Assembly (NCBI RefSeq): GCF_004146235.1
Contig: NZ_SELO01000003.1
Location: 248,001 to 312,000, forward strand
DNA length: 64,000 nucleotides
From: Tropicimonas sp. IMCC6043
Lineage (GTDB): Bacteria; Pseudomonadota; Alphaproteobacteria; Rhodobacterales; Rhodobacteraceae
Direction of reading: 5' to 3'
The first letter of the stretch is position 1; each line of letters opens with the position of its first letter. The notes under the pieces were generated by a model, which saw only the letters and a program-made list of their open reading frames with translations, did no database searches and had not been told where the DNA came from. The translations under genes were made by a program, and so were the position numbers. Of the stretch, positions 12,014 through 56,716 are shown one piece after another.

Positions 12014-12144
12014 CCGGGCGGAGGAACGCGGCTGGTGGCTGCCCATGCCCGCGACTTCCTCAACGGCGGGCGCGGAAATCTCCTGCCGGTTGGAGCATTC
12101 GGAACCTGCGCCGGTCTGGTGCGTTCTCGTCAAAAGGAGCCGAC

Positions 12145-12807: not shown

Positions 12808-12826
12808 CATCAGCGAGGTGAAACGG

Positions 12827-12845
12827 CGCGGCACCCGCTGCCGCG
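12827..12845. terminator. Weak hairpin after the flavin reductase gene
   Basis: CGCGGCA (12827-12833) and TGCCGCG (12839-12845) form a 7-bp stem with a 5-nt loop 20 bp past the stop at 12807. No T-run follows, so termination activity is uncertain. Confidence 0.3.
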
Positions 12846-13022
12846 TCGCCGCAAGACGTGCGGGAGAATGACCTGCTCCGAACGATCGAAGTCAGGAAGT
12901 ACCCGTCCGGCGGGCCAGCGGCCAAGCTTGATCCTTCAGGTCGACGCCATTTACCGTCTCACGCAACCGAACTCCCCCGGGCAGGTCTGGACCGGTCGAC
13001 CGCCGGCGCATAGGGTCATCCA

Positions 13023-16010: not shown

Positions 16011-17150
16011 TCAGCGCCTTTCTCCGGGCACTGTCACGTCTGGTTTCCGGCAGACCCCGTCGGCGCAGCCAGGTCCGGATAGCCGCGGCTGTCGCGCGCC
16101 AGCCTCCGGATCTCCGGACGAAGCGATGAATACTGGCCTCCGGATCTCCGGACGAAGCGATGAATACTGGTTGCGGCGCAGGTGCTCGCGGAACTCCCGT
16201 GGCGTCTGGCCATACTGGCGCTTGAACGAGCGCGAGAAGACCGCCGGATAGGAGAATCCGCAGGCGATCGCGACATCGCCGATCGAAAATTCCTCGTAGA
16301 ACAGGAAGTTCCGCGCCGCCTGAATGCGAATCCTGAGATAGAGCCGCATCGGACTCTCGCCGAAGGTACGTTGGCAGAGCCGTGTCAGGGTGCGTGGAGA
16401 CACCGCGAGTTCCCGGGCCAATGCATCCAGGGTCAGCGGGAAGTCGAGATTCTGCTCCATCTTGGTGATCAGCCGCGCGGCGAGGGTGGTGGTTTCGGTC
16501 CGGGGCGCCGCGTCGCCGCGCTGCGCCACGGTGGCAGGGCGACGGGTATGGACCATGGCATTCGCGACCTCGTTGGCCAGCGCCTCGCCGCTGATGCCGG
16601 CGATGAGCTCCAACATCATGTCCAGCGTCGCGATCCCGCCCGCTGACTGCGCCCGGCCGTTGCCGATCCGGAACAGGCGATCCTCGACGACGGAGCTTTG
16701 AAACAGTTCCTGAAAGGTCCGCGCCGCCTCCCAGTGAAGCACGACCTCCGGGATCTCCGCCGTGCCGATCAGTCCGGCCTGGGCAAGTGCGAAGGCACCG
16801 GTGTCGGCGCTCCCGACGACCGCGCCGAACCGGGCCGCCGCGCGCAGGTGATTGAGCAGTTTGCTGGAATTGTGCTGCGTCGGCAGGTTTCCCTCGAAGA
16901 CCATGTAATGCGTCCCCACCGGCATCGTCTCGAATGAGCAATCGGCGTCCAGGCACATCCCGTTGGAGGCGCGCACTGCGCCGCCGGTCTCCGAAACGAG
17001 AACCCAGCGGTAGAGTTCCCGCCCCGAGTTCTGGTTGGCGATCCGGAGCGCGTCGATCGCCAGCACGAGCGCGTTCAACGGAAATTCCGGCTGCAGAAAC
17101 AACAGGAAGATCGGCGGCATGCTGGAGGGGCGGTGAAGCTCTGGGGCCAT
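16011..17150 (-). CDS. GlxA-family (DJ-1/PfpI plus AraC HTH) transcriptional regulator with altered C-terminus
   Basis: The 379-residue protein has an N-terminal DJ-1/PfpI-like amidotransferase domain (FLLFLQPEFPLNALVLAIDALRIAN to about residue 200; no catalytic Cys expected) and a C-terminal AraC domain with two helix-turn-helix units (LTLDALARELAVSPRTLTRLC and FSIGDVAIACGFSYPAVFSRSFKRQYGQTPREFR). Members activate amine, choline or carnitine-type catabolism. It is divergent from the DapA-like cluster and likely controls it. A 34-bp tandem duplication near the 3' end shifts the reading frame just after the AraC domain, giving a new tail of about 40 residues. The DNA-binding part is intact. 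The ATG at 17120 is an alternative start. Confidence 0.85.
   Translation of the reverse strand: MAPELHRPSSMPPIFLLFLQPEFPLNALVLAIDALRIANQNSGRELYRWVLVSETGGAVRASNGMCLDADCSFETMPVGTHYMVFEGNLPTQHNSSKLLNHLRAAARFGAVVGSADTGAFALAQAGLIGTAEIPEVVLHWEAARTFQELFQSSVVEDRLFRIGNGRAQSAGGIATLDMMLELIAGISGEALANEVANAMVHTRRPATVAQRGDAAPRTETTTLAARLITKMEQNLDFPLTLDALARELAVSPRTLTRLCQRTFGESPMRLYLRIRIQAARNFLFYEEFSIGDVAIACGFSYPAVFSRSFKRQYGQTPREFREHLRRNQYSSLRPEIRRPVFIASSGDPEAGARQPRLSGPGCADGVCRKPDVTVPGERR
16103..16170. repeat. Exact 34-bp tandem duplication inside the GlxA-type regulator gene
   Basis: Positions 16103-16136 and 16137-16170 are identical and directly adjacent. Each unit begins CCTCCGGATCTCCGGACG and contains two TCCGGA palindromes. 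Since 34 is not a multiple of 3, the second copy changes the frame of the host gene. With one copy the protein would end at the stop at 16034 instead of 16011. Confidence 0.95.
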
Positions 17151-17350: not shown

Positions 17351-18319
17351 GTGACACCAGATCAATTGAGAGCCGATCTCGAGGGATGTTACGTCACGAT
17401 CCCGACGCCGTTCAGCGACAGCGACGGCATGCCGGTAAACGAGAAGGCGCTGCGAACCTATGTCCGGTTCCTGATCGACGCCGGGCTGACCGCCGACTAC
17501 GCGACGCTCCTTGCCGGCGGTGCCGCCGGCGATTTCTCGACCATGACCTTCGACGAGCGCATGCGCGTGGCGGAAATCGTGCTCGACGAGGTAAAAGGGA
17601 GCGTGCCGGTCGCGGTCGGGGCGCAGACGACCTCGACGCTTGAGCTTCGGCGGATCGCCCGCAGGGCTTCGGAACTCGGCGCGAGCTATATCCAGGTCTC
17701 CTGCCCGTTCTATTTCACCCACACCGAAGCCGATTTCGAGGAGTTCGTGCTCGCTGCGGCCGAGGCTGCACCAGAGATCGGCATCATCATCTACAACACG
17801 TTCTGGACCTCTCAGGGCGTCTCCTTCGCGATGGTCGAACGGCTGGCGGAGATCCCGAGCGTTGTCGGGCTGAAATGGGCCACGCCCCGCACCGACGCCA
17901 TGGAGTTCGAGGACGTGACATCGCATTTCTCGGACCGTTTCACTGTCATCGACAACAACCTCTTCTTTGCCTATTCGGCCACGCCCGCGCTCGGCGCTCG
18001 CGCCTTTGAAGTCCATAACTGCAACTTCTGGCCGGAATGGGGGATCAAGCTGATCGACGAGGTAAGAGGCGGAAACTACGCCGAAATCTCGCGTATGCTC
18101 GTCGAGGAGGCGATGCCCTTCTACAAGCTCTGGGTTCAGATCGAAAAGGACTTCACCAGCGGCGACGGCTATCTCGACAAGCTCTGCATGGAACTGATCG
18201 GCCTGCCCTCCAGCCGATGCCGGCCGCCGACACGCGACATCCGCAACCGATACCGGGAGGCCACGCTGGCGATGCTCCGACAGATCGGCGCCCCGCGCCT
18301 GCCCTCCCCTGCCCCGTGA
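17351..18319 (+). CDS. Dihydrodipicolinate synthase (DapA) family lyase/aldolase
   Basis: The 322-residue class I aldolase-type barrel has the Schiff-base Lys K175 in VVGLKWATPR and the Tyr Y148 in IIIYNTFW. The loop that in true DHDPS is GTTGE reads GGAAGDF (about residues 56-62), so the second-substrate pocket differs and lysine biosynthesis is unlikely. Family members dehydrate or cleave 2-keto-3-deoxy sugar acids. The GTG at 17351 has GGGAGGA upstream; longer starts add an unrelated lead. It begins a four-gene run with tight spacing (19, 3 and -1 bp) that also encodes an aldehyde dehydrogenase, a hydroxyacid dehydrogenase and an enolase-superfamily protein. Confidence 0.85.
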   Translation: MTPDQLRADLEGCYVTIPTPFSDSDGMPVNEKALRTYVRFLIDAGLTADYATLLAGGAAGDFSTMTFDERMRVAEIVLDEVKGSVPVAVGAQTTSTLELRRIARRASELGASYIQVSCPFYFTHTEADFEEFVLAAAEAAPEIGIIIYNTFWTSQGVSFAMVERLAEIPSVVGLKWATPRTDAMEFEDVTSHFSDRFTVIDNNLFFAYSATPALGARAFEVHNCNFWPEWGIKLIDEVRGGNYAEISRMLVEEAMPFYKLWVQIEKDFTSGDGYLDKLCMELIGLPSSRCRPPTRDIRNRYREATLAMLRQIGAPRLPSPAP

Positions 18320-18338
18320 GCCACCGGAGACCAATCCC

Positions 18339-19832
18339 ATGTCCGACATGACCCTCGACCGCGCCCAGCATATCGCCGCATCGCTGAAGCCCGAGACCCG
18401 CGCCTTCATCGGCGGCGACTATGTCGACGCCAAGGACGGCGATACCTTCGCCTCGATCAACCCGGCGACCGGAGAGGTCGTCGCCGAGATCGCCCATTGC
18501 AAGGCCGCGGATGTGAACAGGGCCGTGACGGCCGCGCGCGGTGCCTTCGACGCCGGGACCTGGAGCCGCGCCGACCCGACCATGCGCAAGGAAGTGTTGC
18601 TGACGCTCGCGAACCTGGTGCGGGAACATGCCGAGGAGCTGGCGGTTCTCGAAAGCATCAACAGCGGCAAGACCATCACCGACTGCCTGCACGAGATCGG
18701 CACCGAAGTGGCAAATTTCTTTCAATGGTACGGTGAGCTTATCGACAAGACCTTTGGCAAGGTCGCGCCAACGGGGCAGGACACGCTGGCGATGATCGTC
18801 CGGGAGCCGGTCGGCGTCGTCGGCCTCGTCCTGCCGTGGAACTTCCCGCTCCTGATGGCGGCGTGGAAACTCGCGCCGGCGCTGGCGGCGGGATGTTCCT
18901 GTATCGTCAAGCCGGCCGAACAGACGCCGCTCACCGCGATCCGTCTGGCGGCTCTGGCGGCCGAGGCGGGCGTTCCGCCGGGCGTGCTGAACGTGCTGCC
19001 CGGCTTGGGCGAGACGGCCGGCGAGGCAATTGGCCGGCATAATGACATCGATGTGGTGTCCTTTACCGGCTCGACCGAAGTCGGCGGCTATTTCCTGCGC
19101 TATGCGGGGGAATCGAACATGAAGGTCGTCGGGCTCGAGATGGGCGGCAAGTCGCCCTTCATCGTGCTCGAGGATGCCGTCATGGATGACGACATGATCG
19201 AGAACGCCGCAATGAGCGCCTTCTGGAACGGCGGCCAGAACTGCTCGGCCAACATGCGCCAACTCGTGGACCGCCGCATTGCCGGCGAATTTGCCGAACG
19301 TGTCACCGAGCGGGCAAAGCGGTTCCGTCTCGGCAACCCGCTCGATCCCGAGACCGACGTCCCCGCGATGGTGACCAGAGAGCACCAGGACCGGGTGATG
19401 TCCTATATCGAGACCGGCAAGAGCGAAGGCGCGACCCTCGTCTGCGGCGGATTCGCGACGAACGCGCCGGGCACCTTCATCCAGCCCGCGGTCTTCACCG
19501 ACGTGGCGCCCTCGATGACCATCGCGCGCGAGGAGATCTTCGGCCCGGTCCTCGGCATCCTGCCGGTCGATGGACTGGACGAGGCGTTGCGCATCGCCAA
19601 GGACACCGATTACGGGCTGCATGCCTCTGTCTTCACCCAGGATATCGACAAGGCGATGCGGATGGCGCGGGCGCTGCCCTGTGGCACGGTCAGCGTCAAC
19701 GCCTTCTCCGAAGGGGACATCACCACGCCCTTCGGGGGATACAAGCGGTCGGGGTCGCTCGCCCGTGACAACGGGGCGGAGGCGATGGACCAGTATCTTC
19801 AGACCAAGACGATCTGGATCGCGCTGCGCTGA
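18339..19832 (+). CDS. NAD(P)-dependent aldehyde dehydrogenase (PuuC/AldA-like)
   Basis: The 497-residue protein is a full-length ALDH superfamily member. Catalytic C302 is in WNGGQNCSANM, general base E267 in GLEMGGKSPF, and N168 in LPWNFPL; the cofactor site includes KPAEQTPLTA and FTGSTEVG. The C-terminal ITTPFGGYKRSGSLARDNG resembles gamma-glutamyl-gamma-aminobutyraldehyde and semialdehyde dehydrogenases. In this cluster it could oxidise the semialdehyde released after the DapA-like step, for example 2-oxoglutarate semialdehyde. GGAGACC sits upstream of the ATG. Confidence 0.92.
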   Translation: MSDMTLDRAQHIAASLKPETRAFIGGDYVDAKDGDTFASINPATGEVVAEIAHCKAADVNRAVTAARGAFDAGTWSRADPTMRKEVLLTLANLVREHAEELAVLESINSGKTITDCLHEIGTEVANFFQWYGELIDKTFGKVAPTGQDTLAMIVREPVGVVGLVLPWNFPLLMAAWKLAPALAAGCSCIVKPAEQTPLTAIRLAALAAEAGVPPGVLNVLPGLGETAGEAIGRHNDIDVVSFTGSTEVGGYFLRYAGESNMKVVGLEMGGKSPFIVLEDAVMDDDMIENAAMSAFWNGGQNCSANMRQLVDRRIAGEFAERVTERAKRFRLGNPLDPETDVPAMVTREHQDRVMSYIETGKSEGATLVCGGFATNAPGTFIQPAVFTDVAPSMTIAREEIFGPVLGILPVDGLDEALRIAKDTDYGLHASVFTQDIDKAMRMARALPCGTVSVNAFSEGDITTPFGGYKRSGSLARDNGAEAMDQYLQTKTIWIALR

Positions 19833-19835
19833 CCG

Positions 19836-20741
19836 ATGCGGACCGCCGTTCTGCTGCAACTCACACCGGACCAGACCGCACGACTTGAGGCGGCGGGGCT
19901 GGAGCCCGTCTTCCTGCCGGATGGCGGGCCCTGCCCCGACGCCTTCCGCGAAGCCGAAATCGCCTTCGGCAATCCACCCCTGGCCTGGCTGAAGGCGTCG
20001 CCCGGACCCGGCTGGGTGCAACTCGAGTCGGTAGGCTTCGGCGAATATGCCGGCCAGGATCTCGGTGGCGCCGTTCTGACAAATCTCGCGGGGTTCTTTG
20101 CCGAGCCCGTCGCCGAATCCATCCTCGCGGGCCTTCTCGCGCTGCTGCGGGGGATCGATCGCTTGACGCTGCTCAGACGTGACGGGCACTGGCTGGGCGA
20201 CAACATCCGCCCCACCCTGCGCTGCCTCTCGGGTGCGCGCGTGACCCTGTTCGGCATGGGGGCGATCAACCGGCGGCTGGCGGAGATGCTCGCAGCGTTC
20301 GGATGCGATATCGCTACCTTCCGAAGCGACTGGCAGCCGGCCGACCTCGACGCTGCGCTGAAGAGCTCCGGCATCCTCGTCGCAACGGCGCCCGACACAC
20401 CCTGCACCCGCGATGTCTTCGACGCCCGGCGGCTGGCAATCCTGCCGCCGCAGGCGATCGTCGCGAGCTTTGGCCGCGGCTTGGTGCTCGACGAGACCGC
20501 ACTTGCCGAAGCGTTGCACACGGGAAGACTCGGCGGCGCCGTAGTCGACGTTACCCGCGAAGAACCTCTGCCCGCCGACCACCCGTTCTGGACCGCGCCG
20601 AACCTGATCCTCACCCAGCATTCCGCCGGAGGCACCGGCGACGAGATCGACCGGAAAATCGACCACTTCCTGGCCAATTTTGCACGTTTCCGCGCGGGCG
20701 AGCCGCTGCAGGGAATCGTCAGCTTTGAAAGGGGATATTGA
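19836..20741 (+). CDS. D-isomer-specific 2-hydroxyacid dehydrogenase
   Basis: This 301-residue NAD(P)-dependent oxidoreductase has a Rossmann motif LFGMGAINRRLAEMLAAFG, the catalytic Arg in VASFGRGLVLDE, Glu in VDVTREEPLPADHPFW and His in LTQHSAGGT. It is slightly shorter than typical members (about 310-330 residues). It interconverts 2-keto acids and D-2-hydroxyacids such as glyoxylate/glycolate or hydroxypyruvate/glycerate. It lies 3 bp after the aldehyde dehydrogenase and its stop overlaps the next ATG by one base, so it is part of the same operon. Confidence 0.88.
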   Translation: MRTAVLLQLTPDQTARLEAAGLEPVFLPDGGPCPDAFREAEIAFGNPPLAWLKASPGPGWVQLESVGFGEYAGQDLGGAVLTNLAGFFAEPVAESILAGLLALLRGIDRLTLLRRDGHWLGDNIRPTLRCLSGARVTLFGMGAINRRLAEMLAAFGCDIATFRSDWQPADLDAALKSSGILVATAPDTPCTRDVFDARRLAILPPQAIVASFGRGLVLDETALAEALHTGRLGGAVVDVTREEPLPADHPFWTAPNLILTQHSAGGTGDEIDRKIDHFLANFARFRAGEPLQGIVSFERGY

Positions 20742-21940
20742 TGCCCGCCATCCGCAGCGTACGGACCGTCCTGCTCTCCTCGCCCTATGCCGACGCAGAG
20801 GACCCGGAAATCAAGGAGTGTTTCCCGAACGGTCCAAAGCGCACGATCGGCATGGTCGAGCTGACGCTCGACACCGGGACAAACGGCATCGGCGAGGGCT
20901 ATCTCGCGGTGTTCGCGCCGCTGGTCTTCAAGTCGATCGTCGAGCTTCTCACCCCCTATCTGGTCGGACGCGACGCCTTCGACATCCCGCGGCGCGTCGC
21001 CGATATGCGGTCGGTCTGCGACTACTGGTCATTGCAGGGCGCGGCGCGCCACGTGATCTCCGCGGTTGAGATCGCGCTCTGGGATGCGATGGGAAAGACA
21101 AAGGGCCAGCCGGTGCATGCGCTGCTCGGCAAGGCCGAGGCCCAGAGCCTGCAGATTTATGGCTCCGGCGGCTGCTGCGACCGCAAGGAACAGTTCCTGC
21201 GGGAGCTCGACCTGCTGGAGAGCAAGGGGATCGGGCTCTACAAGATCCGCTCGGTCAAGACCGATCTGAGGCGCACGGCCTGGGTACTGGAAGAGGCGGC
21301 GGCGCGCGGCATCGGCGTTGGCGTGGACATGTGCCAGAACCTCGCCGACCCGCCGCAATCGGTGGCCGATGCCGCGAGCTTCATCGAGGGCGTCGCGCGG
21401 CTGACATCGGTGCCGATGGTCTTTGTCGAGGAGGCGCTCGGCCCGGATGCGCCGGAGAACTTCCGCGCCCTGCGCGAGCGGATCGACGTGCCGGTCTATG
21501 GCGGCGAGATCATCACCACGCCCAAGGAGATGATCGACCGTCTGGAGGCTGGCACCTATGACGGCGTGCAGCCCGACGCCTCGGTGATCGGCGGCATCTC
21601 GGCGGTCATGGAGGTGTTCGCCGCGGCGGGGCCTGCCGGTGTCCGGGTGATCGTCCATGCCTGGGGCGGACCGGCGGCGATCATGGCGTCCTACCATGCG
21701 GCCTTTGCCGGGGGCGGAGACCTCGTGGAATGGCCGATGCTGTATCACCCGCTGACCGACGACATGATCGGCGGGCGCGCGCGCATCGTCGACGGCCGGC
21801 TGCTGCGGCCGGACGCGCCCGGGATCGGCGTGAGCCTGACGCCGGAGATCGAGGCGCGCTACCCGTTCGACGAGAGCGCGGTCTATTCCTGCATGTTGGC
21901 CGATTACGGCCCGCCGCCCGACGAATACTGGACCCGCTGA
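20741..21940 (+). CDS. Mandelate racemase/muconate-lactonizing (enolase superfamily) acid-sugar dehydratase
   Basis: The 399-residue protein has the enolase-superfamily layout. Metal ligands are D197 (VGVDMCQN), E230 (MVFVEEA) and E256 (VYGGEIIT). The D279 (QPDASVIGG) and H306 (IVHAWGG) pair forms the base on the barrel's far side, and the near-side KxK position reads K168-I-R170. This mandelate-racemase-subgroup arrangement fits dehydration of acid sugars to 2-keto-3-deoxy acids. Together with the DapA-like lyase and the ALDH it suggests a dehydrate, cleave, oxidise route; the exact sugar is unknown. A TTG three bases earlier is possible, but the ATG at 20741 overlaps the previous stop. Confidence 0.88.
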   Translation: MPAIRSVRTVLLSSPYADAEDPEIKECFPNGPKRTIGMVELTLDTGTNGIGEGYLAVFAPLVFKSIVELLTPYLVGRDAFDIPRRVADMRSVCDYWSLQGAARHVISAVEIALWDAMGKTKGQPVHALLGKAEAQSLQIYGSGGCCDRKEQFLRELDLLESKGIGLYKIRSVKTDLRRTAWVLEEAAARGIGVGVDMCQNLADPPQSVADAASFIEGVARLTSVPMVFVEEALGPDAPENFRALRERIDVPVYGGEIITTPKEMIDRLEAGTYDGVQPDASVIGGISAVMEVFAAAGPAGVRVIVHAWGGPAAIMASYHAAFAGGGDLVEWPMLYHPLTDDMIGGRARIVDGRLLRPDAPGIGVSLTPEIEARYPFDESAVYSCMLADYGPPPDEYWTR

Positions 21941-21958
21941 CCGTCCGAAGCGGCGGCT

Positions 21959-23050
21959 TCAACCTTCCGAAGCGGCGCCGACGGCGATGCCGTCGGCATC
22001 GAAGAGATGCAGATGCGCCGTGTCGGGCGCAGCCCGAACAGGGCCGCCCTCGGGCACGTTCAGCCCCCGGAACTCCATGATCACCGGACCCGCCGGGTGA
22101 TCGGGCGCGTGCAGCAACGACACGGTGCCGAGCCGCTCCACGAAGGTCACCTCGGCCCGGAACGGACCGACCTCGGACAGCGTCAGGTGCTCGGGACGCA
22201 CCCCGAGCGTCACCGGATCGCCGACACGCAGCCTCCCGGGCGCGACCTTGACAGGCACCGGCGCGTCGCATCCCGCGATCTCCACCTGCGCCTCGGCCTC
22301 CGAGAGCGCAACCACCCGGCCCTTGAGCAGGTTCATCCGCGGCGAGCCGACGAAACCCGCGACGAAGACATTCGCCGGTCGGGTGAAGAGTTCGATGGGC
22401 GTGCCCACCTGTTCGATCCTTCCGTCGCGCAGCACCACGATCCTGTCGGCCATGGTCATCGCTTCGACCTGATCGTGGGTCACATAGATCATCGTCGCCC
22501 CGAGCTTGCGGTGCAGCGAGGTGATCTCCAGCCGCATCTGCACCCGCAACTCGGCGTCGAGATTGGAGAGCGGCTCGTCGAACAGGAACACGTCCGGCTC
22601 ACGCACGATGGCCCGTCCGATGGCGACGCGCTGGCGCTGGCCGCCGGAAAGCTGCCGCGGATAACGGTCCATCAGCGGCTCGAGTTGCAGGATCGCGGCC
22701 GCTTTGCGGGCCATCTCGAGCCGGTCCGCCTTGCCGATCCCGGCCATTCGGAGCGGAAAGGCGATGTTCTCGGCGACCGTCATGTGGGGATAGAGCGCAT
22801 AGCTCTGGAACACCATCGCCGCGCCGCGCTTGGAAGCGTCGACATCGCGCATCGACTTCCCGCCGATCCGGATATCGCCACGCGTCAGGGTCTCGAGCCC
22901 GCAGATCATGCGCAACAGGGTGGACTTGCCGCATCCCGAGGGGCCCACGAACACCACCAGCTCGCCGGAGTTCAGGTGAAGGCTGACCTCGCCAATGGCC
23001 TCGAAAGCCCCGAAGTTCTTTCCGACTTGCACCAGTTCGACATCGCTCAT
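21959..23050 (-). CDS. Sugar ABC transporter ATP-binding protein (MalK/UgpC-like)
   Basis: The 363-residue ATPase has Walker A GPSGCGKST at residues 36-44, Q-loop VFQSYALYPHMTV, signature LSGGQRQR, Walker B VFLFDEPLSNLD and a C-terminal TOBE regulatory domain (LGVRPEHLTL region). This MalK/UgpC type drives CUT1 importers for sugars, polyols or glycerophosphodiesters. It is the last gene of the minus-strand operon and should pair with the two permeases and binding protein upstream. Its stop is only 18 bp from the convergent stop of the enolase-superfamily gene. Confidence 0.92.
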   Translation of the reverse strand: MSDVELVQVGKNFGAFEAIGEVSLHLNSGELVVFVGPSGCGKSTLLRMICGLETLTRGDIRIGGKSMRDVDASKRGAAMVFQSYALYPHMTVAENIAFPLRMAGIGKADRLEMARKAAAILQLEPLMDRYPRQLSGGQRQRVAIGRAIVREPDVFLFDEPLSNLDAELRVQMRLEITSLHRKLGATMIYVTHDQVEAMTMADRIVVLRDGRIEQVGTPIELFTRPANVFVAGFVGSPRMNLLKGRVVALSEAEAQVEIAGCDAPVPVKVAPGRLRVGDPVTLGVRPEHLTLSEVGPFRAEVTFVERLGTVSLLHAPDHPAGPVIMEFRGLNVPEGGPVRAAPDTAHLHLFDADGIAVGAASEG

Positions 23051-23129
23051 TGCGCTCTTTCTCGTTCAGGTTGCCCTCGGGCGGAGGCCCGGCGCAGCGG
23101 GCGCCGGGCACGGTGGTATCGCGGCTGGC

Positions 23130-24338
23130 TCAGACCCTGAAGCGCGTGCAGCGGACATATTGCAGGGGTACCTCGTCCTCGCTCCACTCGTGATAGAGCG
23201 CGACGCAGGTACCGTCCGGGACCTTCACGATCGAGGGGTAGCCGATATGCTGGTAGACGCCCGGATGCTCCCAGTTGACCTCCCCGCCCTTGTGACCGCC
23301 GGCGCTGAACCCAAGCGTGCTCGCCACCTTGCCCTCGGCCGACTTGCCGGGGACGCCGCCCTCGCGGATGACGAACTCGTCCTTCACGTCCCAGGTAACG
23401 CCGTCCTCCGAGATGATGCCGCGCACGCCGTAGGGTGGTTTGCGATAGCCGTATACCATGAGGTAGCGGCCGTCCTGCAACGTGATCAACTCGGCCGGGA
23501 AGCCCCAGATGTTGGTCCATTTCGGCGGCGTCCAGGAGAAACCGTCATCCTCGGAGATCGTCATCACCATGTTCTTGGCGTCCGAGGAGGGGTTCACATG
23601 CGTCCGCATGAAACAGACCAGCCGCCCGTCCTTCAGCCGCAGGATCGCGGGTTCCTCGTAGTCGATGATATTTGCGGGATCATAGGCGAGGGTCGAGTAA
23701 TATTCCCAGTTGCGCCCGCCATCGTCGGAGCGGATCAGGAAGGAGCGCGTGGTCTCGCCCTCGCCCTCCTCCTCGTAGCCGTGCATCCGGCCATAGAGCC
23801 CCATCAGGAGCCCGCCGTCGGGCAGCTGCCAGCAGCCGAGGCGGCAGCCCGCGTGCTTCATCGGCCGGACGTTGCAGGCGACGGGCTTCTCCGTCCAGGT
23901 CTCGCCGCCATCGTGGGAATACACCACATAGGTTCCGATCCAGGAGCGCAGGCGGTAGGACCAGGTCCAGTCGCCCCATTCCTCGGTCAGCGGCCCGGCG
24001 GCCCAGGAGGGCTGGAGGTGCTTCTGTCCGCGCTTGAAGAAGGCGGTGATGGTGAAGTTCACGATCAGCGTGCCGTCTTCCATCTCGCAGATGCCGCAAT
24101 CCCAGTTCCCTTCCACGTCGGACCAGGGATAGACGACCTTGGACACCGACCAGGTCTTTCCGCCGTCCTTCGAGCGCGTGATGCGGGTCTGGCCGGTGTC
24201 GTGGTGGATCGGAAAGCGTTCCTCGTTGAAGACGGCGAGGATGTCGCCGTTCCTGAGCGTGCGGGCCGCGATCTGATTCAGGCAATGGACGTCGCTGGTC
24301 TCGATCGTCACGTGCTCGATGTCAGAAATGATTGCCAT
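23130..24338 (-). CDS. Sialidase-fold (BNR/Asp-box repeat) protein, predicted cytoplasmic
   Basis: The 402-residue beta-propeller candidate carries at least four Asp-box-like repeats: SKDGGKTWS (about 56-64), SHDGGETWT, SDDGGRNWE and SEDDGFSWT. There is no signal peptide or membrane helix, unlike secreted sialidases. It is encoded inside a sugar ABC-importer operon, between an aldehyde dehydrogenase and the ATPase, so it may act on an imported oligosaccharide or a sugar acid, or as a non-catalytic binder. I cannot see the Arg triad pattern well enough to call true sialidase activity. A paralogue lies at 29502-30626. Confidence 0.8.
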   Translation of the reverse strand: MAIISDIEHVTIETSDVHCLNQIAARTLRNGDILAVFNEERFPIHHDTGQTRITRSKDGGKTWSVSKVVYPWSDVEGNWDCGICEMEDGTLIVNFTITAFFKRGQKHLQPSWAAGPLTEEWGDWTWSYRLRSWIGTYVVYSHDGGETWTEKPVACNVRPMKHAGCRLGCWQLPDGGLLMGLYGRMHGYEEEGEGETTRSFLIRSDDGGRNWEYYSTLAYDPANIIDYEEPAILRLKDGRLVCFMRTHVNPSSDAKNMVMTISEDDGFSWTPPKWTNIWGFPAELITLQDGRYLMVYGYRKPPYGVRGIISEDGVTWDVKDEFVIREGGVPGKSAEGKVASTLGFSAGGHKGGEVNWEHPGVYQHIGYPSIVKVPDGTCVALYHEWSEDEVPLQYVRCTRFRV

Positions 24339-24380
24339 GATCTGTCCTGAGTCCTTGGTTTCCAGGTTTCCACTCCGGCG

Positions 24381-25877
24381 TCAGCGTCGAATGCGGATGC
24401 CGATGTTCTTGAGGGCGACGTAGTTCATGATCCCGGCCTCGCCGCGCTCGCGGCCGACGCCGCTGTCACGCGTTCCGCCGGTCGGGGCCTGCAATCCGCC
24501 GATGAACCAGCCGTTGATCCAGACCGACCCGGCCCGGATGCTGCGCGAGAGGCGCAAGGCCCGGTCGATGTCTTTCGTGAAGACGCCGGCGACGAGCCCG
24601 TAGGTCAGCCGGTTGGCGAGCGCGAGCGCCTCCTCCTCTGTGTCGAAGGCGAAGGCCGTGATCACCGGGCCGAAGGTCTCCTCGCTGGCTATGGCGCTCG
24701 CAGGGTCGACATCGGCGAAGATCGTGGGCGCGACGAACCAGCCATCCTCGAGCCCCGCGGGGCGCCCGCCGCCGAGAAGCAGCCGTGCCCCGTTCGTCCG
24801 CGCGCTTTCAATATGCGACATGACCTTGGCGTGCTGCTCGGCCGAGACCAGCGGGCCGATCATCGCGTCCTCCATCCCGGGCGCGACGGTGACCCCCTTC
24901 GCGGCATCGACAAGGCGGTCGAGAAAGGCATCGTGAATGCCCCGTTGCAGGACCACACGAGACACCGAGGAACAGACCTGACCGCAATTGTCGAAGGCAC
25001 CGTCGAGGACGACCTCGACCGCGGCGTCGATATCGGCATCGTCGAAGATCAGGATCGGGTTCTTGCCACCGAGTTCGAGCACCACCGGCTTGAGGTTCCG
25101 CCCCGCGGCCTCGCCGATGCGCCGGCCGGTCGCGACAGAACCGGTAAAAGTGATCCCATCGATGCCGGGATGATCGGTCAGGGCGGCGCCGGCCTCCGCC
25201 CCGAAGCCGGTCACGCAGGTCACCACCCCCGCCGGAAGCCCCGCCACCCGGCAGAGCTCGGCAAAGGCCAGGGTGGTCAGCGAGGATTGCTCGGCGGGTT
25301 TGAGGATGACGGTGCAGCCGGCCGCCAGAGCCGGTGCTGCCGAGCGCATGGCCATGCCGAGCGGGTAGTTCCAGGGCGTGATATGGACGGTCACGCCGAG
25401 CGGCTCCAGCTCGGCATAGTCGACGAAATCCGGCCCGAGGGGCACGGTGATCCCCTGAAGCTTGTCGGCCCAGCCAGCGTTGTAGCGCAGTCCGCCGACG
25501 CAGCCTCGCATGTCGCCCCGCGCCGCCGACAGGGGCTTTCCCATATCCATCGTCTCAAGACGTGCGAGCAGGTCGGAATGCGCCTCCAGCACCTCCGCAA
25601 GACGCATGAGCATTTGACCGCGATCCTGCGGGACCATGTCGCGCCAGCTCGGCAGCGCCGCCGTTGCCGAGGCGACGGCGCGCTCTGCGTCCTCCGCCCT
25701 GCCCCGGGCGAGCCGCGCGATCAGCCGTCCCGTCGAGGGATCGTGGCTGTCGAAGGTCTCGCCCCCCGCGGCCGGTGTCCCGCCCGCCGCGGTGTAGATC
25801 GACGGCAGCGTCGGCGCGTCGCCGGACAGGATGGTGGCGAGGAGATCGAGGATCGGCGTGGAAACGGTGTGGCTCAT
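24381..25877 (-). CDS. NAD(P)-dependent aldehyde dehydrogenase (betaine/semialdehyde type)
   Basis: The 498-residue ALDH has C302 in DNCGQVCSSVSR, E268 in VLELGGKNPI, N170 in ITPWNYPLG and cofactor residues in LKPAEQSS and FTGSVATG. It is distinct from the ALDH at 18339 and belongs more to the betaine-aldehyde/succinate-semialdehyde group. The ATG at 25877 overlaps the stop of the upstream permease (ATGA), so the enzyme is translated with the importer and likely oxidises an aldehyde made from the transported sugar. A much longer in-frame extension upstream is only the shadow of the permease gene. Confidence 0.92.
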   Translation of the reverse strand: MSHTVSTPILDLLATILSGDAPTLPSIYTAAGGTPAAGGETFDSHDPSTGRLIARLARGRAEDAERAVASATAALPSWRDMVPQDRGQMLMRLAEVLEAHSDLLARLETMDMGKPLSAARGDMRGCVGGLRYNAGWADKLQGITVPLGPDFVDYAELEPLGVTVHITPWNYPLGMAMRSAAPALAAGCTVILKPAEQSSLTTLAFAELCRVAGLPAGVVTCVTGFGAEAGAALTDHPGIDGITFTGSVATGRRIGEAAGRNLKPVVLELGGKNPILIFDDADIDAAVEVVLDGAFDNCGQVCSSVSRVVLQRGIHDAFLDRLVDAAKGVTVAPGMEDAMIGPLVSAEQHAKVMSHIESARTNGARLLLGGGRPAGLEDGWFVAPTIFADVDPASAIASEETFGPVITAFAFDTEEEALALANRLTYGLVAGVFTKDIDRALRLSRSIRAGSVWINGWFIGGLQAPTGGTRDSGVGRERGEAGIMNYVALKNIGIRIRR

Positions 25878-26716
25878 TGCTTCACACCTCCCTGGGAGAT
25901 GCCCTGGATGAAGTATTTCTGAAGGAAGAAGAACAGCAGCAGCGACGGCACCGACAGCACCGTCACCGCGGCCATCGAGACCGAGAAGGCTTCGAGCTGG
26001 GTGTGCGAGCCGGTGATTGGTGCGAAGGCCGCGATGCCGACCGGCAGGGTCTTCATCTCGTCGTCGAAGACCACCAGCAGAGGCCACAGGAAGTTGTTCC
26101 AGTTCAGCGTGAAGATGATGACCGAGGCGGCGATCATCGGCGCGCGCGCCAGCGGCAGCGCGACCAGGAGGAAGGTCTTGAAGGCCGAGGCACCGTCCAG
26201 CCGCGCGGCCTCCTCGATCTCCCGCGGGAAGGAAAGGAAGAACTGGCGGAAGATGTAGACCGAGAAGACGTTGGCGATCGTCGGCAGGATCAGCGCCTGA
26301 TAGGTCGAGGCCCAGCCGATCTTTATGAAGGCGAGCAGCATGGGGACGACCGTGACCTCGCTCGGGATCATCAGCGAGGCAAGGAAGACAAGGAAGATGA
26401 TCCGCCCGCCCGGCACCCGGAGCCGCGCCAGCGCGTAGCCCGCCATGGCGCCGAAGAAGACGCAGAGCCCGGTCGAGACCGTCGCCTGCACCAGCGAATT
26501 GAACCCCCAGCGGATCACCGGGTATTCGAACACCTTGCGGTAGTTGTCGAGGGTCCAGCGGCGCGGAAACCATTCGATGTCCTGGGTCATCACGTCGGCG
26601 GGGAACTTGAAGGAGGTGGAAACCATCCAGACGAAGGGCGCCGCCCAGGCCAGCGCCACCAGCAGGCCGCCGATCCAGACGATCACGTCGCCGCGGGTCA
26701 TGCCCAACTCGCGCAT
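25874..26716 (-). CDS. Sugar ABC transporter permease (MalG-like, CUT1)
   Basis: The protein of about 280 residues has six membrane segments and the cytoplasmic EAA loop EEAARLDGASAFKTFLLVALP, ending with FLQKYFIQGISQGGVKQ, the typical MalG tail. It forms the importer channel with the MalF-like partner. A TTG at 26728 gives a four-residue extension, but the ATG at 26716 has AAAGG upstream and looks better. The 3' end overlaps the aldehyde dehydrogenase start. Confidence 0.92.
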   Translation of the reverse strand: MRELGMTRGDVIVWIGGLLVALAWAAPFVWMVSTSFKFPADVMTQDIEWFPRRWTLDNYRKVFEYPVIRWGFNSLVQATVSTGLCVFFGAMAGYALARLRVPGGRIIFLVFLASLMIPSEVTVVPMLLAFIKIGWASTYQALILPTIANVFSVYIFRQFFLSFPREIEEAARLDGASAFKTFLLVALPLARAPMIAASVIIFTLNWNNFLWPLLVVFDDEMKTLPVGIAAFAPITGSHTQLEAFSVSMAAVTVLSVPSLLLFFFLQKYFIQGISQGGVKQ

Positions 26717-26724
26717 CCGGCCTT

Positions 26725-27642
26725 TCAATGTGTGACCTCCCGGAAGATGACGCGCTGCACGACGGTGATCAGCAGGATCAGTACGAAGAGGATGATCGCC
26801 AGCGCCGAGGCGTAGCCATAGAGGTTGCGGGTGATCGCGGTTGTGTAGATGTAGTAGATCGGCGAGGCCGAGGACCCGGCCGGCCCGCCACCGGTCATCA
26901 CGAAGATCTGGCTGAAGATCCTGAGCGTGGCGATGAGTTGCAGCGTGACGACCATCGACAGGACGGGACGCAGCTGGGGCAGGATGATGAAGCGCAGCCG
27001 GCTGAACGGCCCCGCCCCATCAACCCGCGCGGCTTCGATCAGGTCTTTCGGGATGTCCTGGAGCGCCGCCAGTATCAGCACGAAGGCGAGCCCGAGGTCC
27101 CACCAGACCGACGCGATGGCGACGCCGAAGAGCGACCAGTCGATAGATGTCAGCCAGGGGATCGGGCCAATCCCGACAAATCCGAGATAGTGGTTGATCA
27201 GGCCGAACTGGGTGTCGAGCATCCACACCCAGACCAGCCCGATCACCGTGGCCGACACGACATTGGGCGAGAAGAAGAGCGTCCGCGCCAGTCCCGAGGC
27301 CGGATAGCCGCGGTTGACGTAGAGCGCGAAGAGCGTTGCCAGGACCGTCACCGACGGAACGATGCAGAGCGCGTACCACAGCACGTTGGTGAAGGCCTGC
27401 CAGGCCCAAGGGTCGGACCAGATCTCCTCGAAGTTCCGGCTGCCGACATATTCCGGTGCGCCGAAGATCGACCACTCGGTGAAGGCGACATAGAAGCCGA
27501 AGATGACCGGCAGGACGTTGAAGATCAGGAACGGAATGCCGAACGCGGCGATGAAGAGGTAGCCGACCCAATGGATCCGCTCACGCTCCGCCTCGGCAAG
27601 ACCTGCCGTCGCCCCCGCAATCGTCCCGGTGGAGGTTGTCAT
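26725..27642 (-). CDS. Sugar ABC transporter permease (MalF-like, CUT1)
   Basis: The 305-residue membrane protein has a cytoplasmic N-terminus, a first helix (GYLFIAAFGIPFLIFNVLPVI), the EAA loop IEAARVDGAGPFSRLRFIILP and a GPAGSSASPIYYIYTTA periplasmic turn, all standard for CUT1 MalF/UgpA proteins. It lies 102 bp downstream of the binding-protein gene and directly before the MalG-like permease. Confidence 0.92.
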   Translation of the reverse strand: MTTSTGTIAGATAGLAEAERERIHWVGYLFIAAFGIPFLIFNVLPVIFGFYVAFTEWSIFGAPEYVGSRNFEEIWSDPWAWQAFTNVLWYALCIVPSVTVLATLFALYVNRGYPASGLARTLFFSPNVVSATVIGLVWVWMLDTQFGLINHYLGFVGIGPIPWLTSIDWSLFGVAIASVWWDLGLAFVLILAALQDIPKDLIEAARVDGAGPFSRLRFIILPQLRPVLSMVVTLQLIATLRIFSQIFVMTGGGPAGSSASPIYYIYTTAITRNLYGYASALAIILFVLILLITVVQRVIFREVTH

Positions 27643-27744
27643 GCTCTTTGCACCTCAGTTCCGCGCCGCGTTTCGACAGGTGGATGTCCTCGGACATGGA
27701 ACGGGCGGCCGGCAATCCGGGCCGCCCGCCCATCCTGGTCCGTA

Positions 27745-29082
27745 TCAGCCCTTGTCGAGTGCTTTCTGCCACGCCGTGGCGAGTTGCTCCATCGCTTGGG
27801 CGGGAGTCGCCTGGCCGGTCCAGACGAGTTCGAGCGTCTTGGCGAGGATATTGCCGCCCGAGTAGATGGTGAATTCCGGGCCGTCGAGCACCGGGACCTC
27901 GTAGATATCGGCAAAGGACATCCCCTCGATGAAGGCTCCGCGCACGTTCCACGGATGGCCAGCGGTGTCGTAGCCCGGCATCGCCAGGATCGACTTCCGG
28001 GGCGATGCGCCGCGCCCGACCGTCGTCCACTCGAAGGAATTGTCGGAAAGCCACTTGATGGCGTCCATGGTTGCCTTGTAGCGGCCCTTGTCCTGCTGGA
28101 CATACATCTCAAGCCCGCCCTCTTCGAAATAGGTGCGGCGCTTCTCTCCGATCTGTGGGAAGAGCGCGGTCTTGAAGTCCAGCCCCTGGCCGACATAGCC
28201 GTTGAGCGTCCATGGTCCGGTCCAGAAGATCGAGCCCTGGCCGGTGCCGAAGGCCTTGTAGCGGTCGGTCACGTCGCGGGTGGAGACCTTCCACTCGTCG
28301 AAGAGCGCCAGGACCCATTCCATCGCGGCGATACCGGCTTCCGGGTTCACAGCGGCGGTCTTGAGATCGGCTGAGGCGCGCTCGAAGCCCATCTGGGCCG
28401 CGACGATGCCCCAGGTCACGGTGGGCTGCACGCCCGAGCCGGTCATCAGGATGCCCGACCTCGTCACGGTGTCGCCATCCATCCTGGTCATCGCCTTGCC
28501 CCATTCGATCAGCTCCTCGCCGGTCTCCGGGGCAGCGTCGGGCGCAAACCCGGCCTCGGCCATGTGCTGGAGGTTGATCTCCGGCTGGAGGCTCATCAGG
28601 TCCATCGGAATGAGATAAAGCGCGTTGTCATAGGCCGGGTAGCGCGCGGCGTTCAGCGGGCCTTCCTCGAAATCCGAGAGGTCCAGCCCGCTTTCGACGG
28701 CAAGCTCGTCCATCGGCACGGTCACGCCGTCGCGAGCTAGCTTGGCGCCCTTGCCAGCCGTTCCCCAGCCGAAATCCGGTGCGCGGCCGGTCGCGGCCGC
28801 CGCGAGGGTCTTGGTCACGACCTGGTCCTCGGGAACCAGCTCCATCTTGATCTGCACGCCCTTGTCCTTGTGCGCCTCGTTGAACGCATCGATGGACTTG
28901 GCCCAGACCTCGCCGTCGGAGGCCGCCAGCCACGACCAGTGAACGATCTCGATCGGGCTCTGCGCCCAGACACGGGTGGAAAGCGTCGGTGCCGCGAGGG
29001 CGCCACCGACGGCCGCCGCGCCGGATTTCAGCAGGCGGCGGCGGGACATAGGGTGCGGTGTGTTGGTGATCTTGGTCATCAT
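27745..29082 (-). CDS. Sugar ABC transporter substrate-binding protein (CUT1), Tat-type signal
   Basis: The 445-residue extracellular solute-binding protein (family 1, UgpB/MalE-like) has the twin-arginine leader SRRRLLKSGAAAVGGAL ending in VWAQ near residue 41, so it is probably exported folded by Tat. The mature part begins PIEIVHWSWLAASDGEVWAKSIDAFNEAH, typical of the family. AGGGGACCCTG precedes the ATG pair at 29082/29079. It is the first gene of an operon of binding protein, two permeases, aldehyde dehydrogenase, sialidase-fold protein and ATPase. The ligand is unknown; the neighbours suggest an oligosaccharide or sugar acid. Confidence 0.92.
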   Translation of the reverse strand: MMTKITNTPHPMSRRRLLKSGAAAVGGALAAPTLSTRVWAQSPIEIVHWSWLAASDGEVWAKSIDAFNEAHKDKGVQIKMELVPEDQVVTKTLAAAATGRAPDFGWGTAGKGAKLARDGVTVPMDELAVESGLDLSDFEEGPLNAARYPAYDNALYLIPMDLMSLQPEINLQHMAEAGFAPDAAPETGEELIEWGKAMTRMDGDTVTRSGILMTGSGVQPTVTWGIVAAQMGFERASADLKTAAVNPEAGIAAMEWVLALFDEWKVSTRDVTDRYKAFGTGQGSIFWTGPWTLNGYVGQGLDFKTALFPQIGEKRRTYFEEGGLEMYVQQDKGRYKATMDAIKWLSDNSFEWTTVGRGASPRKSILAMPGYDTAGHPWNVRGAFIEGMSFADIYEVPVLDGPEFTIYSGGNILAKTLELVWTGQATPAQAMEQLATAWQKALDKG

Positions 29083-29501: not shown

Positions 29502-30626
29502 TCAGGCGGGCAGCGACCACCGCGTGCGGAGGATACAGGTGGTCCGGTCGCCATCCTCGCCGTAGTAAAGCGTCAGCAGTGATCCGTCGCCGCAGGGGAT
29601 CGTGCAGGGATAGCCGAGATTGCCGTTGCCCATCCCGGCGCGGATCACGACAGGTTCGGACCACGTCTCGCCATCGTCGTCGGACCAGACGGCACGAATT
29701 CCGTGGTCCGGAATCCGCCATCCGTAGGTCATCAGGATCCGCCCGTCGGCAAGTTCCGCCAGATGCGCCGGAAGCCCCGCCGTCTGGAGGTCGCGCCGAG
29801 GCGACCAGGTCGCGCCGCCATCGTCCGAATGGATGGCGTGCATGGTGCGCAACCCGTTGTCGCGCAGGATCATCAGGATCCGGCCGGTCCGGGTAATCAG
29901 GGTCGCGGGCTCTTCGAACTCGCTGCCCTCGGCATCCGCAAGCACGGTCGGAGCCGACCATGTCCGGCCCATGTCGTCGGAGGTGACGAGAAACAGGGTC
30001 GCGAAGCGATAGGCATCGGTCAGCGGCAGCAGGATACGCCCGCCCGGCGTGACAACGCCGCCGCGATTGCCATAGCCGCCGATCAGCGGCGCGGTATCGA
30101 TCTCGACCGTTTCTGCAAAGGATCGCGCGCCGTCCCTTGAGAAATGAACGAAGCACCGGCCGCCGTTGCGGACCCAGGGCGCGTGCGCCTCGGGATTGCG
30201 TTCGGCGTCGTGTCCCGAATAGACGCCGGCGGCGATCCAGGGCGAGAGAAGCTCCGCCGGCCAGGTCATCAGCGGTTCGGCCTCCATCGTCCGCGCCCGC
30301 GACAGGGGAATCCAGGTCCCCCGCCACTGGTTCAGCATCACCTGCCCGTCCGGCAGTTCGGTCAGGCCGGCGCATTCCGTTCCGGTCCAGCCATAGCCGG
30401 GCGCGACCTCGGGCGGCGACCAGGTCTCGCCATCGTCCTCCGACCGAGTCACCACGTTCATGAACATCGGATCCTGTGGCGGATGCATGATGATCTCGCG
30501 CCTCGGGGCCTTGTTGAAGACCATCGCGATCCCGCCATCGGCGAGCCGGATCGCATCGGGATGCGCGAGATAGCTGTGAGGATCGCGGAAGAGGACCGCG
30601 TGCTCAACATCGTCTGCATGGATCAT
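29502..30626 (-). CDS. Second sialidase-fold (BNR/Asp-box repeat) protein
   Basis: The 374-residue beta-propeller candidate has Asp-box-like repeats SEDDGETWS (about 65), SDDMGRTWS, SDDGGATWS and SDDDGETWS, and no signal peptide. It is related in pattern to the BNR protein at 23130 but clearly different in sequence. The ATG at 30626 has AAAGGCTGTCCGAC upstream; longer starts add a Cys/Arg-rich lead without propeller character. It has its own upstream region and a strong hairpin downstream, so it is likely a separate transcript of the same catabolic region. Enzymatic activity is not proven by the visible motifs. Confidence 0.78.
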   Translation of the reverse strand: MIHADDVEHAVLFRDPHSYLAHPDAIRLADGGIAMVFNKAPRREIIMHPPQDPMFMNVVTRSEDDGETWSPPEVAPGYGWTGTECAGLTELPDGQVMLNQWRGTWIPLSRARTMEAEPLMTWPAELLSPWIAAGVYSGHDAERNPEAHAPWVRNGGRCFVHFSRDGARSFAETVEIDTAPLIGGYGNRGGVVTPGGRILLPLTDAYRFATLFLVTSDDMGRTWSAPTVLADAEGSEFEEPATLITRTGRILMILRDNGLRTMHAIHSDDGGATWSPRRDLQTAGLPAHLAELADGRILMTYGWRIPDHGIRAVWSDDDGETWSEPVVIRAGMGNGNLGYPCTIPCGDGSLLTLYYGEDGDRTTCILRTRWSLPA

Positions 30627-31184: not shown

Positions 31185-31841
31185 TCACCCGAGCCGCATC
31201 CCGCCATCGACCGGAATATCAACACCGGTGATGTAATCGCCGGAGGCTGCGCAAAGCATTGCGACGACGCCTGCACATTCCTCCGCGCACCCGACGCGTC
31301 CAAGTGGAATCTTGTCCTCCACTCGCGAGCGGTAGGTCTGGTCGGAAAGGGCGTCTGCGTTGCGCTCCGTTCCGATGACACCGGGCGCCACGTTGTTGAC
31401 CGTGATGCCGTCCGGGGCGAGTTGCGCCGCGAGGCTTCGGACCATGTTTTCCATCCCGCTCTTCATCACGGCATAGACCAGCATCTCGGGATGTGGTCGC
31501 CATTGCTGGATCGACCCGATGGTGACGATCCGGCCCCAACCTTGCGCGATCATATGGGGGGTCGCCGCCTGTATCAGCGCGATCGTTGCCATGATATTGG
31601 CATCGAATTGCCGGTGCGCCGCATCGCGATCGACACGGCGCCAATCCTGCCGGATCTGAACCGCTGCATTGGCGATCAGGAGGTCCACACCACCGCCCAG
31701 ACCGGACGCCGCGCCTGACACGAGGTCCTCCGCGACATGCTCGGCCGTAAGATGGCCCCCGACGACCGCGGCACGGCGCCCGAGGGCCTCGATCTCACCT
31801 GCCACCTGTTCTGCGGCGGCCCTGGCGCCCGCATAGTGCAC
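31185..31841 (-). pseudogene. SDR-family oxidoreductase lacking its N-terminal cofactor motif
   Basis: The 218-residue frame contains most of a classical short-chain dehydrogenase: LLIANAAVQ (NAG-type motif), the Ser region IVTIGSIQQW, the YxxxK pair in VYAVMKSGMENM, NNVAPGVIGT and the end DYITGVDIPVDGGMRLG. The N-terminal strand and the TGxxxGIG nucleotide motif, about 30 residues, are missing. In frame, the text YVCVHYAGARAAAEQVAGEI is preceded within nine codons by a TAA at 31868-31866, and the next gene upstream ends at 31925, so the missing part is not present. The protein is probably non-functional, unless it serves as a degenerate partner. Confidence 0.75.
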
Positions 31842-34303: not shown

Positions 34304-34319
34304 GTCGGTCTCCGGGATG

Positions 34320-42305: not shown

Positions 42306-42328
42306 GTCGTCTCCTCCTTCAGGTCGGG

Positions 42329-43606: not shown

Positions 43607-43607
43607 G

Positions 43608-52860: not shown

Positions 52861-52955
52861 GGTTTTGGCATGACCTCCTCGGTATTTTGTATTTGATTTG
52901 ATCGCCCCAAGGGGTGAGGCTCAGAGAAACACCAACAACGACAGGGATAGATGCG

Positions 52956-56712: not shown

Positions 56713-56716
56713 CGTG

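Follow-up and report, generated by a model that had tools for sequence, protein, structure and literature searches.

The stretch of DNA analysed here, which we call the window, comprises 64,000 nucleotides of Tropicimonas sp. IMCC6043 (contig NZ_SELO01000003.1, C91:248001-312000 in our numbering) and lies within a 5.46-Mb genome. It contains two operons that face each other, and together these encode a set of putative catabolic enzymes, a sugar-type importer and proteins of the BNR type. The plus-strand operon encodes, in order, a DHDPS-family lyase (starting with GTG at 17351), an aldehyde dehydrogenase (ALDH1), a D-2-hydroxyacid dehydrogenase and an MR/MLE enzyme of the enolase superfamily, hereafter ENO (ATG 20741). 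In its direction of transcription, the minus-strand operon encodes a solute-binding protein, two permeases, a second aldehyde dehydrogenase (ALDH2), a BNR protein (BNR1) and an ATPase. A first-pass annotation, made from the sequence alone, had listed this content for both strands and had described the operons as meeting within 18 bp; each of these genes proved to be an open frame with Pfam support at the place it had given, and 18 bases separate the two facing stop codons.

Gene content of the two operons

The best Pfam matches of the ten named proteins range from an E value of 3e-12 (the binding protein) to 1e-164 (ALDH2), and all of them lie above the curated cut-off (Table 1). The minus-strand gene run also extends past the binding protein, where a second BNR gene (BNR2), absent from the first-pass list, lies 419 bp upstream on the same strand. 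A binding protein, two permeases and a MalK-type ATPase stand in one gene run, as in CUT1 importers, and this importer gene order is repeated in two related genomes, G345 and G021. In the D-2-hydroxyacid dehydrogenase, the Arg, Glu and His of what we take to be the usual catalytic set can be read by eye. A scan for promoters and terminators returned one promoter-like site, where 1.5 were expected, and eight terminator-like sites, where 5.9 were expected.

Table 1. Genes of the two facing operons and their immediate surroundings (positions within the window)
Feature	Position	Strand	Evidence and remarks
AraC-family regulator, HTH_18	16011..17150	-	Divergent from plus operon; distant from GbdR (213 bits vs cut-off 480)
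DapA/DHDPS-superfamily lyase	17351..18319	+	PF00701, E 5e-29
ALDH1, PuuC/KauB-like	18339..19832	+	PF00171, E 3e-162; nearest solved chains 7uyy, KauB 6b4r
D-isomer-specific 2-hydroxyacid dehydrogenase	19836..20741	+	PF02826, E 4e-36; nearest solved 3evt, 3hg7
ENO, mandelate-racemase-subgroup (acid-sugar dehydratase or cycloisomerase-like)	20741..21940	+	PF13378/PF02746; Foldseek 3sjn, then 5olc
CUT1 importer ATPase, MalK-type	21959..23050	-	Pfam ABC_tran, OB_MalK, TOBE_2
BNR1, beta-propeller, predicted sialidase fold, probably cytosolic	23130..24338	-	PF13088 (BNR_2), E 6e-20
ALDH2	24381..25877	-	PF00171, E 1e-164; 37% identical to ALDH1
CUT1 permease PermG	25874..26728	-	PF00528, E 2e-16
CUT1 permease PermF	26725..27642	-	PF00528, E 5e-16
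Solute-binding protein, twin-arginine-like signal (by eye)	27745..29082	-	PF13416, E 3e-12; weakly similar to maltose-type binding proteins
BNR2, second BNR_2 protein	29502..30626	-	PF13088, E 7e-19; 29% identical to BNR1
SDR without N-terminal nucleotide-binding part	31185..31841	-	Profile match starts at position 30 of 236

Linkage of the two operons in relatives

Using an ENO identity of at least 65%, we collected nine distinct loci, the window included: one in G345 (L048), one in G021 (L044/L045) and six others (L038-L043). A stretch from genome G031 (L046) is contained letter for letter in L042 and was counted once. Among the relatives, those whose records bear a name are Rhodobacteraceae or alphaproteobacterial (Defluviimonas, Frigidibacter and three metagenome-assembled genomes, or MAGs), together with one Aestuariivirga MAG. 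The lyase stands alongside ENO in eight of the nine loci, with orthologues 75-82% identical in the seven distinct loci other than the window; the exception, L043, is a contig that begins just upstream of ENO, and for this reason neither the lyase nor ALDH1 can be judged there. The hydroxyacid dehydrogenase precedes ENO in seven loci (not in L039 or G021), and ALDH1 was found in five (the window, L038, L040, L041 and L042). Beside the lyase, an orthologue of the AraC-type regulator (46-61% identical) occurs in four of the eight other loci (L039-L042).

The genes of the minus-strand operon recur in some of these loci. BNR1 accompanies the CUT1 ATPase in five of the nine, in one of which (L038) only 39 residues of it are present, where the contig ends, and BNR2 is present in three (the window, L038 and L039), adjoining BNR1 in the latter two as well. 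Orthologues of the ATPase lie beside BNR genes in L038, L039, L044 and L048 (55-65% identical), those of the binding protein were found in L039, L044 and L048 (61-74%), and those of PermG (74-77%) and PermF (68-71%) in L044 and L048. We saw no BNR match in the fetched stretches of L040-L043, and a whole-genome search of G031 found no BNR1 at E <= 1e-10.

The facing order of the window is repeated in G345, where the lyase, dehydrogenase and ENO genes run against those for the ATPase, BNR1, ALDH2, the permeases and the binding protein, without ALDH1. Two MAG contigs, L038 and L039, also carry the lyase and ENO near the ATPase, BNR1 and BNR2. The ATPase and BNR genes of L038 again face ENO, with an RTX-repeat gene in between, and those of L039 lie upstream of the lyase on the same strand, with the binding protein reversed. 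The lyase-ENO core and the BNR module of G021 are about 12 kb apart on one contig.

Across 394 genomes of the family, BNR1 was found in three (own genome, G021 and G345; E <= 1e-10) and the lyase in four (the same three and G031; E <= 1e-60). All three BNR1 genomes are therefore among the four lyase genomes, and in all three both modules share a contig. The probability of this co-occurrence by chance is about 4e-7, or about 4e-5 when the own genome is excluded, in a calculation that treats genomes as independent and whose figures are weakened by relatedness. Because the BNR1 genomes nest within the lyase genomes, because both modules lie on shared contigs and because G345 repeats the convergent order, these comparisons support the view, already put forward in the first-pass annotation, that the two operons belong to one system. 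The co-occurrence and the repeated linkage led us to reject the alternative that unrelated operons had come to lie side by side by chance.

Outside these genomes, matches are few. Among 385 genomes from the class, only the own genome passed for BNR1 (E <= 1e-25) and for the lyase (E <= 1e-60), and BNR2 was found at E <= 1e-15 in the own genome alone among 194 relatives. A looser BNR1 search of 60 relatives (E <= 0.001) gave four matches, namely the own genome, G021 and, weakly, G049 (4e-20) and G025 (4e-7). In plasmid records, the matches to BNR1, ENO, the lyase and BNR2 all fell below 60% identity. Since ENO was found at E <= 1e-100 only in the own genome of the nine examined from the genus, the distribution suggests acquisition by transfer or repeated loss.

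More distant BNR loci were sampled by opening 11 out of 21 distinct plasmid records; over the aligned part, their BNR proteins share about 25-36% identity. Two of the opened records, Rhizobium SSA_523 and Devosia A8/3-2, show a far more diverged version of the grouping, with DHDPS-family, GntR and CUT1 genes beside the BNR gene.

Other genes stand close to the cluster in two relatives. In G345, an RPE65-family (carotenoid-oxygenase-type) protein is encoded about 1.6 kb from the lyase gene (L048 5531-7051, minus strand). Beside the cluster in L039 (11455-14379 and 17410-18546) are genes for a D-serine-dehydratase/BhcC-like protein, a flavin-monooxygenase-like protein and a second NMT1-type binding protein.

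Folds and active sites

The first-pass annotation had described BNR1 as a cytoplasmic protein of the sialidase fold, and our results agree with this description. We modelled BNR1 with AF2 (pLDDT 75, pTM 0.79; 73 of 402 residues below 50), and a Foldseek search with this model returned 5hx0 first and then mostly sialidases among the best 50 matches (lowest E value 2e-15, with a TM-score of 0.65), so that the predicted model is a sialidase-type beta-propeller. Four Asp-boxes were found in each of four BNR1 proteins. No signal peptide was visible by eye in BNR1 or BNR2, whereas the N-terminus of the binding protein resembles a twin-arginine signal, and both BNR proteins are accordingly predicted to be cytosolic. 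In sialidases, an N-terminal [F/Y]-R-I-P carries the first carboxylate-binding Arg. A motif scan did not find [FYW]R[ILVM]P in the four BNR1 proteins; the first blade of BNR1 reads N-Q-I-A at that place, and BNR2 has a W-R-I-P only near its C-terminus, where it aligns with Y-R-K-P of BNR1. Because this motif is missing despite the predicted fold, we do not call BNR1 a sialidase. Its closest solved relative by both sequence and fold, 5hx0 (Dfer_1899), is itself of unknown function and offers none to transfer, and the two are 20% identical in the fold alignment.

GH33 sialidase/Nan systems resemble the cluster in combining a propeller fold like that predicted for BNR1 with a DHDPS-superfamily lyase. 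They differ from it in that BNR1 lacks the R-I-P motif and a visible export signal, and no NanE or NanK is found among the operon genes. It is conceivable that BNR1 and BNR2, as sialidase-like glycosidases, release Kdo, Kdn or another 2-keto-3-deoxy acid, that the DapA-like enzyme acts on it as an aldolase, and that an ALDH and ENO handle the resulting aldose as its aldonate. Such a route would make sense of the predicted BNR1 fold, of the recurrence of the BNR-CUT1-DHDPS grouping in the two Rhizobiales records and of the best NCBIfam match of ENO, arabinonate dehydratase (106 bits against a cut-off of 650), arabinose being the aldose derived from Kdo; DapA-like lyases also include N-acetylneuraminate lyase. 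However, it would have to accommodate four BNR1 proteins without [FYW]R[ILVM]P, a DHDPS-ENO core that, in the parts of L040-L042 inspected, has no BNR gene with it, and a nanA match of only 52 bits against 382, and we consider it the least probable of the explanations weighed here.

In the lyase itself, the Schiff-base Lys175 and Tyr148 are invariant in six aligned proteins, as befits a class I lyase of the DHDPS type. Its loop reads G-G-A-A-G-D where G-T-T-G-E is usual. Matches to the KdgD, HpaI-type, NanA and DapA models reach 52-75 bits, far below their cut-offs. The best of them, to 5-keto-4-deoxyglucarate dehydratase KdgD, scores 75 bits against an NCBIfam cut-off of 374, and membership among N-acetylneuraminate lyases is equally unsupported by PRK04147 (61 bits against 281). 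The superfamily assignment is firm, while scores this far below the cut-offs do not fix the reaction. Neither aldehyde dehydrogenase reached an NCBIfam cut-off among its best matches (the best 25 of 42 for one and the best 25 of 44 for the other).

These scores bear directly on whether the plus-strand operon could serve ordinary aldarate catabolism, through a dehydratase, KdgD and alpha-ketoglutarate semialdehyde dehydrogenase, next to an unrelated sugar importer. In favour of this are the agreement in enzyme classes and the best NCBIfam match of the lyase, which is to KdgD, but the score of that match is low, ENO and, among the best matches just given, the ALDHs fall below all cut-offs, the two modules co-occur far above chance, and the hydroxyacid dehydrogenase and BNR proteins would be left unexplained. 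We therefore regard this explanation as very unlikely. Non-phosphorylative aldonate and aldarate routes include the Weimberg/Dahms and the GudD-KdgD-alphaKGSADH pathways. The cluster is like them in having a dehydratase, a DHDPS-superfamily enzyme and an ALDH; it is unlike them in that its lyase, ENO and ALDHs score below the listed equivalog cut-offs, and in its additional hydroxyacid dehydrogenase and BNR module. As a candidate, a known sialic-acid or aldarate pathway is disfavoured by the scores and motifs.

Numbered from the TTG at 20738, ENO carries K169-I-R171, D197, E231, E257, D280, H307-A-W309 and E331, and an alignment of seven proteins shows no variation at its metal-ligand and His-Asp residues. 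Foldseek matched the ENO model best to 3sjn, a structure without known function, and next to the acid-sugar cycloisomerase 5olc, its closest characterised relative (24% and 23% identical, respectively, in the fold alignments). The published account of AtGCI and DauB gives Asp194, Glu220 and Glu246 as metal ligands, Lys166 as the base, His296 as the acid and Asp87 and Trp298 as shared pocket residues (PMC5698469). In our sequence alignment, the ligands map to D197, E231 and E257 of ENO, the acid to H307 and the pocket pair to D95 and W309, so that all of these are retained, while the base, the second Lys of K-x-K, maps to R171 of a K-x-R; every one of these ENO residues is invariant in the seven proteins. 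The equivalence of Lys166 and Arg171 is a reading of two strand sequences in the poorly aligned second barrel strand. Overall, ENO appears to have the machinery of an acid-sugar enzyme, including a His307-Asp280 dyad, but the residue at the base position of the characterised cycloisomerases is apparently Arg, and this counts against filing ENO as one of them.

The same residues invite comparison with anhydro-sugar use. In such a route an ALDH would form an anhydro-aldonate, ENO would act as a ring-opening cycloisomerase and the DapA-like enzyme would cleave a 2-keto-3-deoxy-hexonate, much as in carrageenan use without a kinase. The sugar dehydrogenase DauA of carrageenan use is presumably of the ALDH type. 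ENO keeps the metal ligands, the acid His and the equivalents of the Asp and Trp common to DauB and AtGCI, and in the published pathway DauA acts first, while the kinase dauC is missing from some species (PMC5698469). Set against this are the invariant Arg171 at the place of the general base, the 23% identity to 5olc behind a better match without known function, the PuuC/KauB-type nearest neighbours of ALDH1, and the absence of a GH127/GH129-type hydrolase or sulfatase match among the cluster proteins scanned; we judge the route quite unlikely. The dauABCD carrageenan anhydrogalactose pathway of Zobellia, taken together with AtGCI, resembles our cluster in its dehydrogenase, enolase-superfamily cycloisomerase, 2-keto-3-deoxy-acid step and AraC-type regulator, and in the ENO residues just listed (PMC5698469). 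Here, by contrast, an Arg stands at the presumed general base, a DapA-like lyase replaces the kinase and aldolase, and BNR proteins, a CUT1 importer and a hydroxyacid dehydrogenase are present.

Uptake and a candidate pathway

In five of the nine loci (L038-L042), not including the window, an NMT1/SsuA-like (SsuA/TauA-like) importer separates the lyase from ALDH1 or ENO, for example at 4962-7573 in L040. Its ATPase is 77-87% identical to that of L042 across loci, its matches to SsuA and TauA are well below curated cut-offs, and two of the five loci (L038 and L039) also carry BNR genes. Importers of this type are usually linked to sulfonates, taurine or vitamin precursors, not to sugars. That relatives have them suggests that the substrate of the core can enter the cell in free form, as a small molecule, which leaves room for a non-sugar acid, and the gene orders point to importer exchange in front of one core, with CUT1 in the window operon and the SsuA/TauA-like type in relatives.

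Accordingly, the core could act on a small acid such as a sulfonate or a hydroxy-amino-acid derivative that enters through the SsuA/TauA-like importer, with the BNR-CUT1 module freeing the same compound from a conjugate. The position of that importer inside the operon in five of nine loci and the GbdR-like regulator are in keeping with this possibility, and DHDPS-type and MR-type enzymes also serve in hydroxyproline betaine use. Yet no desulfonating or demethylating enzyme was found among the operon genes, the SsuA, TauA and GbdR matches all fall well below curated cut-offs, and the closest characterised relative of ENO acts on an acid sugar. A non-sugar acid is, in our view, an unlikely substrate.

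We instead favour, with a probability of roughly 0.5, a single system that takes up an unusual sugar acid, or a glycoside of it, and degrades it by a non-phosphorylative route. Its chemistry and regulation are what we infer from the observed gene content, conserved linkage and active-site residues and from the predicted folds. The CUT1 importer would bring in a conjugate, which BNR1 and BNR2, without visible export signals, would cut, releasing either an acid or an aldehyde from which ALDH2 makes the acid by oxidation. In the next step ENO, which is probably Mg-dependent, would use its His307-Asp280 dyad to take the alpha proton and eliminate the beta substituent, giving a 2-keto-3-deoxy acid. 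Through a Schiff base on Lys175, the DapA-like enzyme would either cleave this product to pyruvate and an aldehyde or dehydrate it; ALDH1 would oxidise the released aldehyde, and the D-2-hydroxyacid dehydrogenase would interconvert hydroxy and keto acids. In relatives whose loci showed no BNR gene, the monomer would reach this core directly, through the SsuA/TauA-like importer.

Several observations weigh against this proposal. BNR1 lacks the sialidase R-I-P motif, and ENO has K-x-R where the general base would be expected; both ENO and the lyase also score far below every NCBIfam cut-off they were matched to. By family match, the operon genes include no lactonase, kinase, sulfatase or secreted depolymerase. 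ALDH1 and the hydroxyacid dehydrogenase, found in five and seven of the nine loci, may be accessory, and the alternative importer of five loci is of a type not usually tied to sugar acids. A CUT1 importer and a DHDPS gene occur near the BNR gene in only two of the 11 distant loci, the other nine having no such set, and the combination of BNR, CUT1 and DHDPS genes is in this sample a recurring, not a general, pairing. Finally, the identity of the substrate, for which the first-pass annotation had suggested an unusual oligosaccharide or sugar acid, and the order of the steps, given there as dehydration, cleavage and oxidation, are themselves inferred.

The first-pass annotation knew of no described pathway with this gene set, and we likewise found no description of it among the papers listed in open-access searches, judging by the listings, a scope that most subscription papers fall outside. 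We tentatively entertain the more specific idea that the pathway is an undescribed one, although we would not yet bet on it: a cytosolic pair of sialidase-fold proteins, lacking the N-terminal R-I-P motif of sialidases, would act on an imported conjugate by a new reaction, be it hydrolysis, elimination or lactone opening, and feed a K-x-R ENO and a new DapA-superfamily lyase, with two unrelated importers swapped before this core according to whether the substrate comes as a conjugate or free. The enolase superfamily, the DapA superfamily and the sialidase fold are known for substrate diversity, and their members here reach no NCBIfam cut-off, yet are tightly linked and rare. The substrate could therefore be tested with a small set of purified proteins. 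From the outcome one might learn what cytosolic BNR proteins do, for which the closest solved relative, 5hx0, is of unknown function.

The SDR gene beyond BNR2 is probably a decayed remnant outside the pathway, since its frame starts inside the domain and no Gly-rich motif was seen in the three frames of that strand. We rejected it as a first dehydrogenase (sugar to lactone), as it is N-terminally truncated and its only match in ten relative stretches is 30% identical and lies 9 kb from ENO (L039). Directly adjoining the cluster on the minus strand (31925-35606) are genes for DabA (PF10070) and, upstream of it, a Proton_antipo_M protein, likely a dissolved-inorganic-carbon uptake pair. Upstream of the cluster, the plus strand encodes a PoxB-like thiamine-diphosphate enzyme and a CitMHS/DASS-type anion transporter with TrkA_C domains (10298-14804). 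Farther along the window, TRAP transporter components (DctP/DctM) are encoded at 41328-44849, 46008-47429 and 52914-53951, one set beside an FAD-dependent oxidoreductase, and a molybdopterin oxidoreductase is encoded at 56714-58963.

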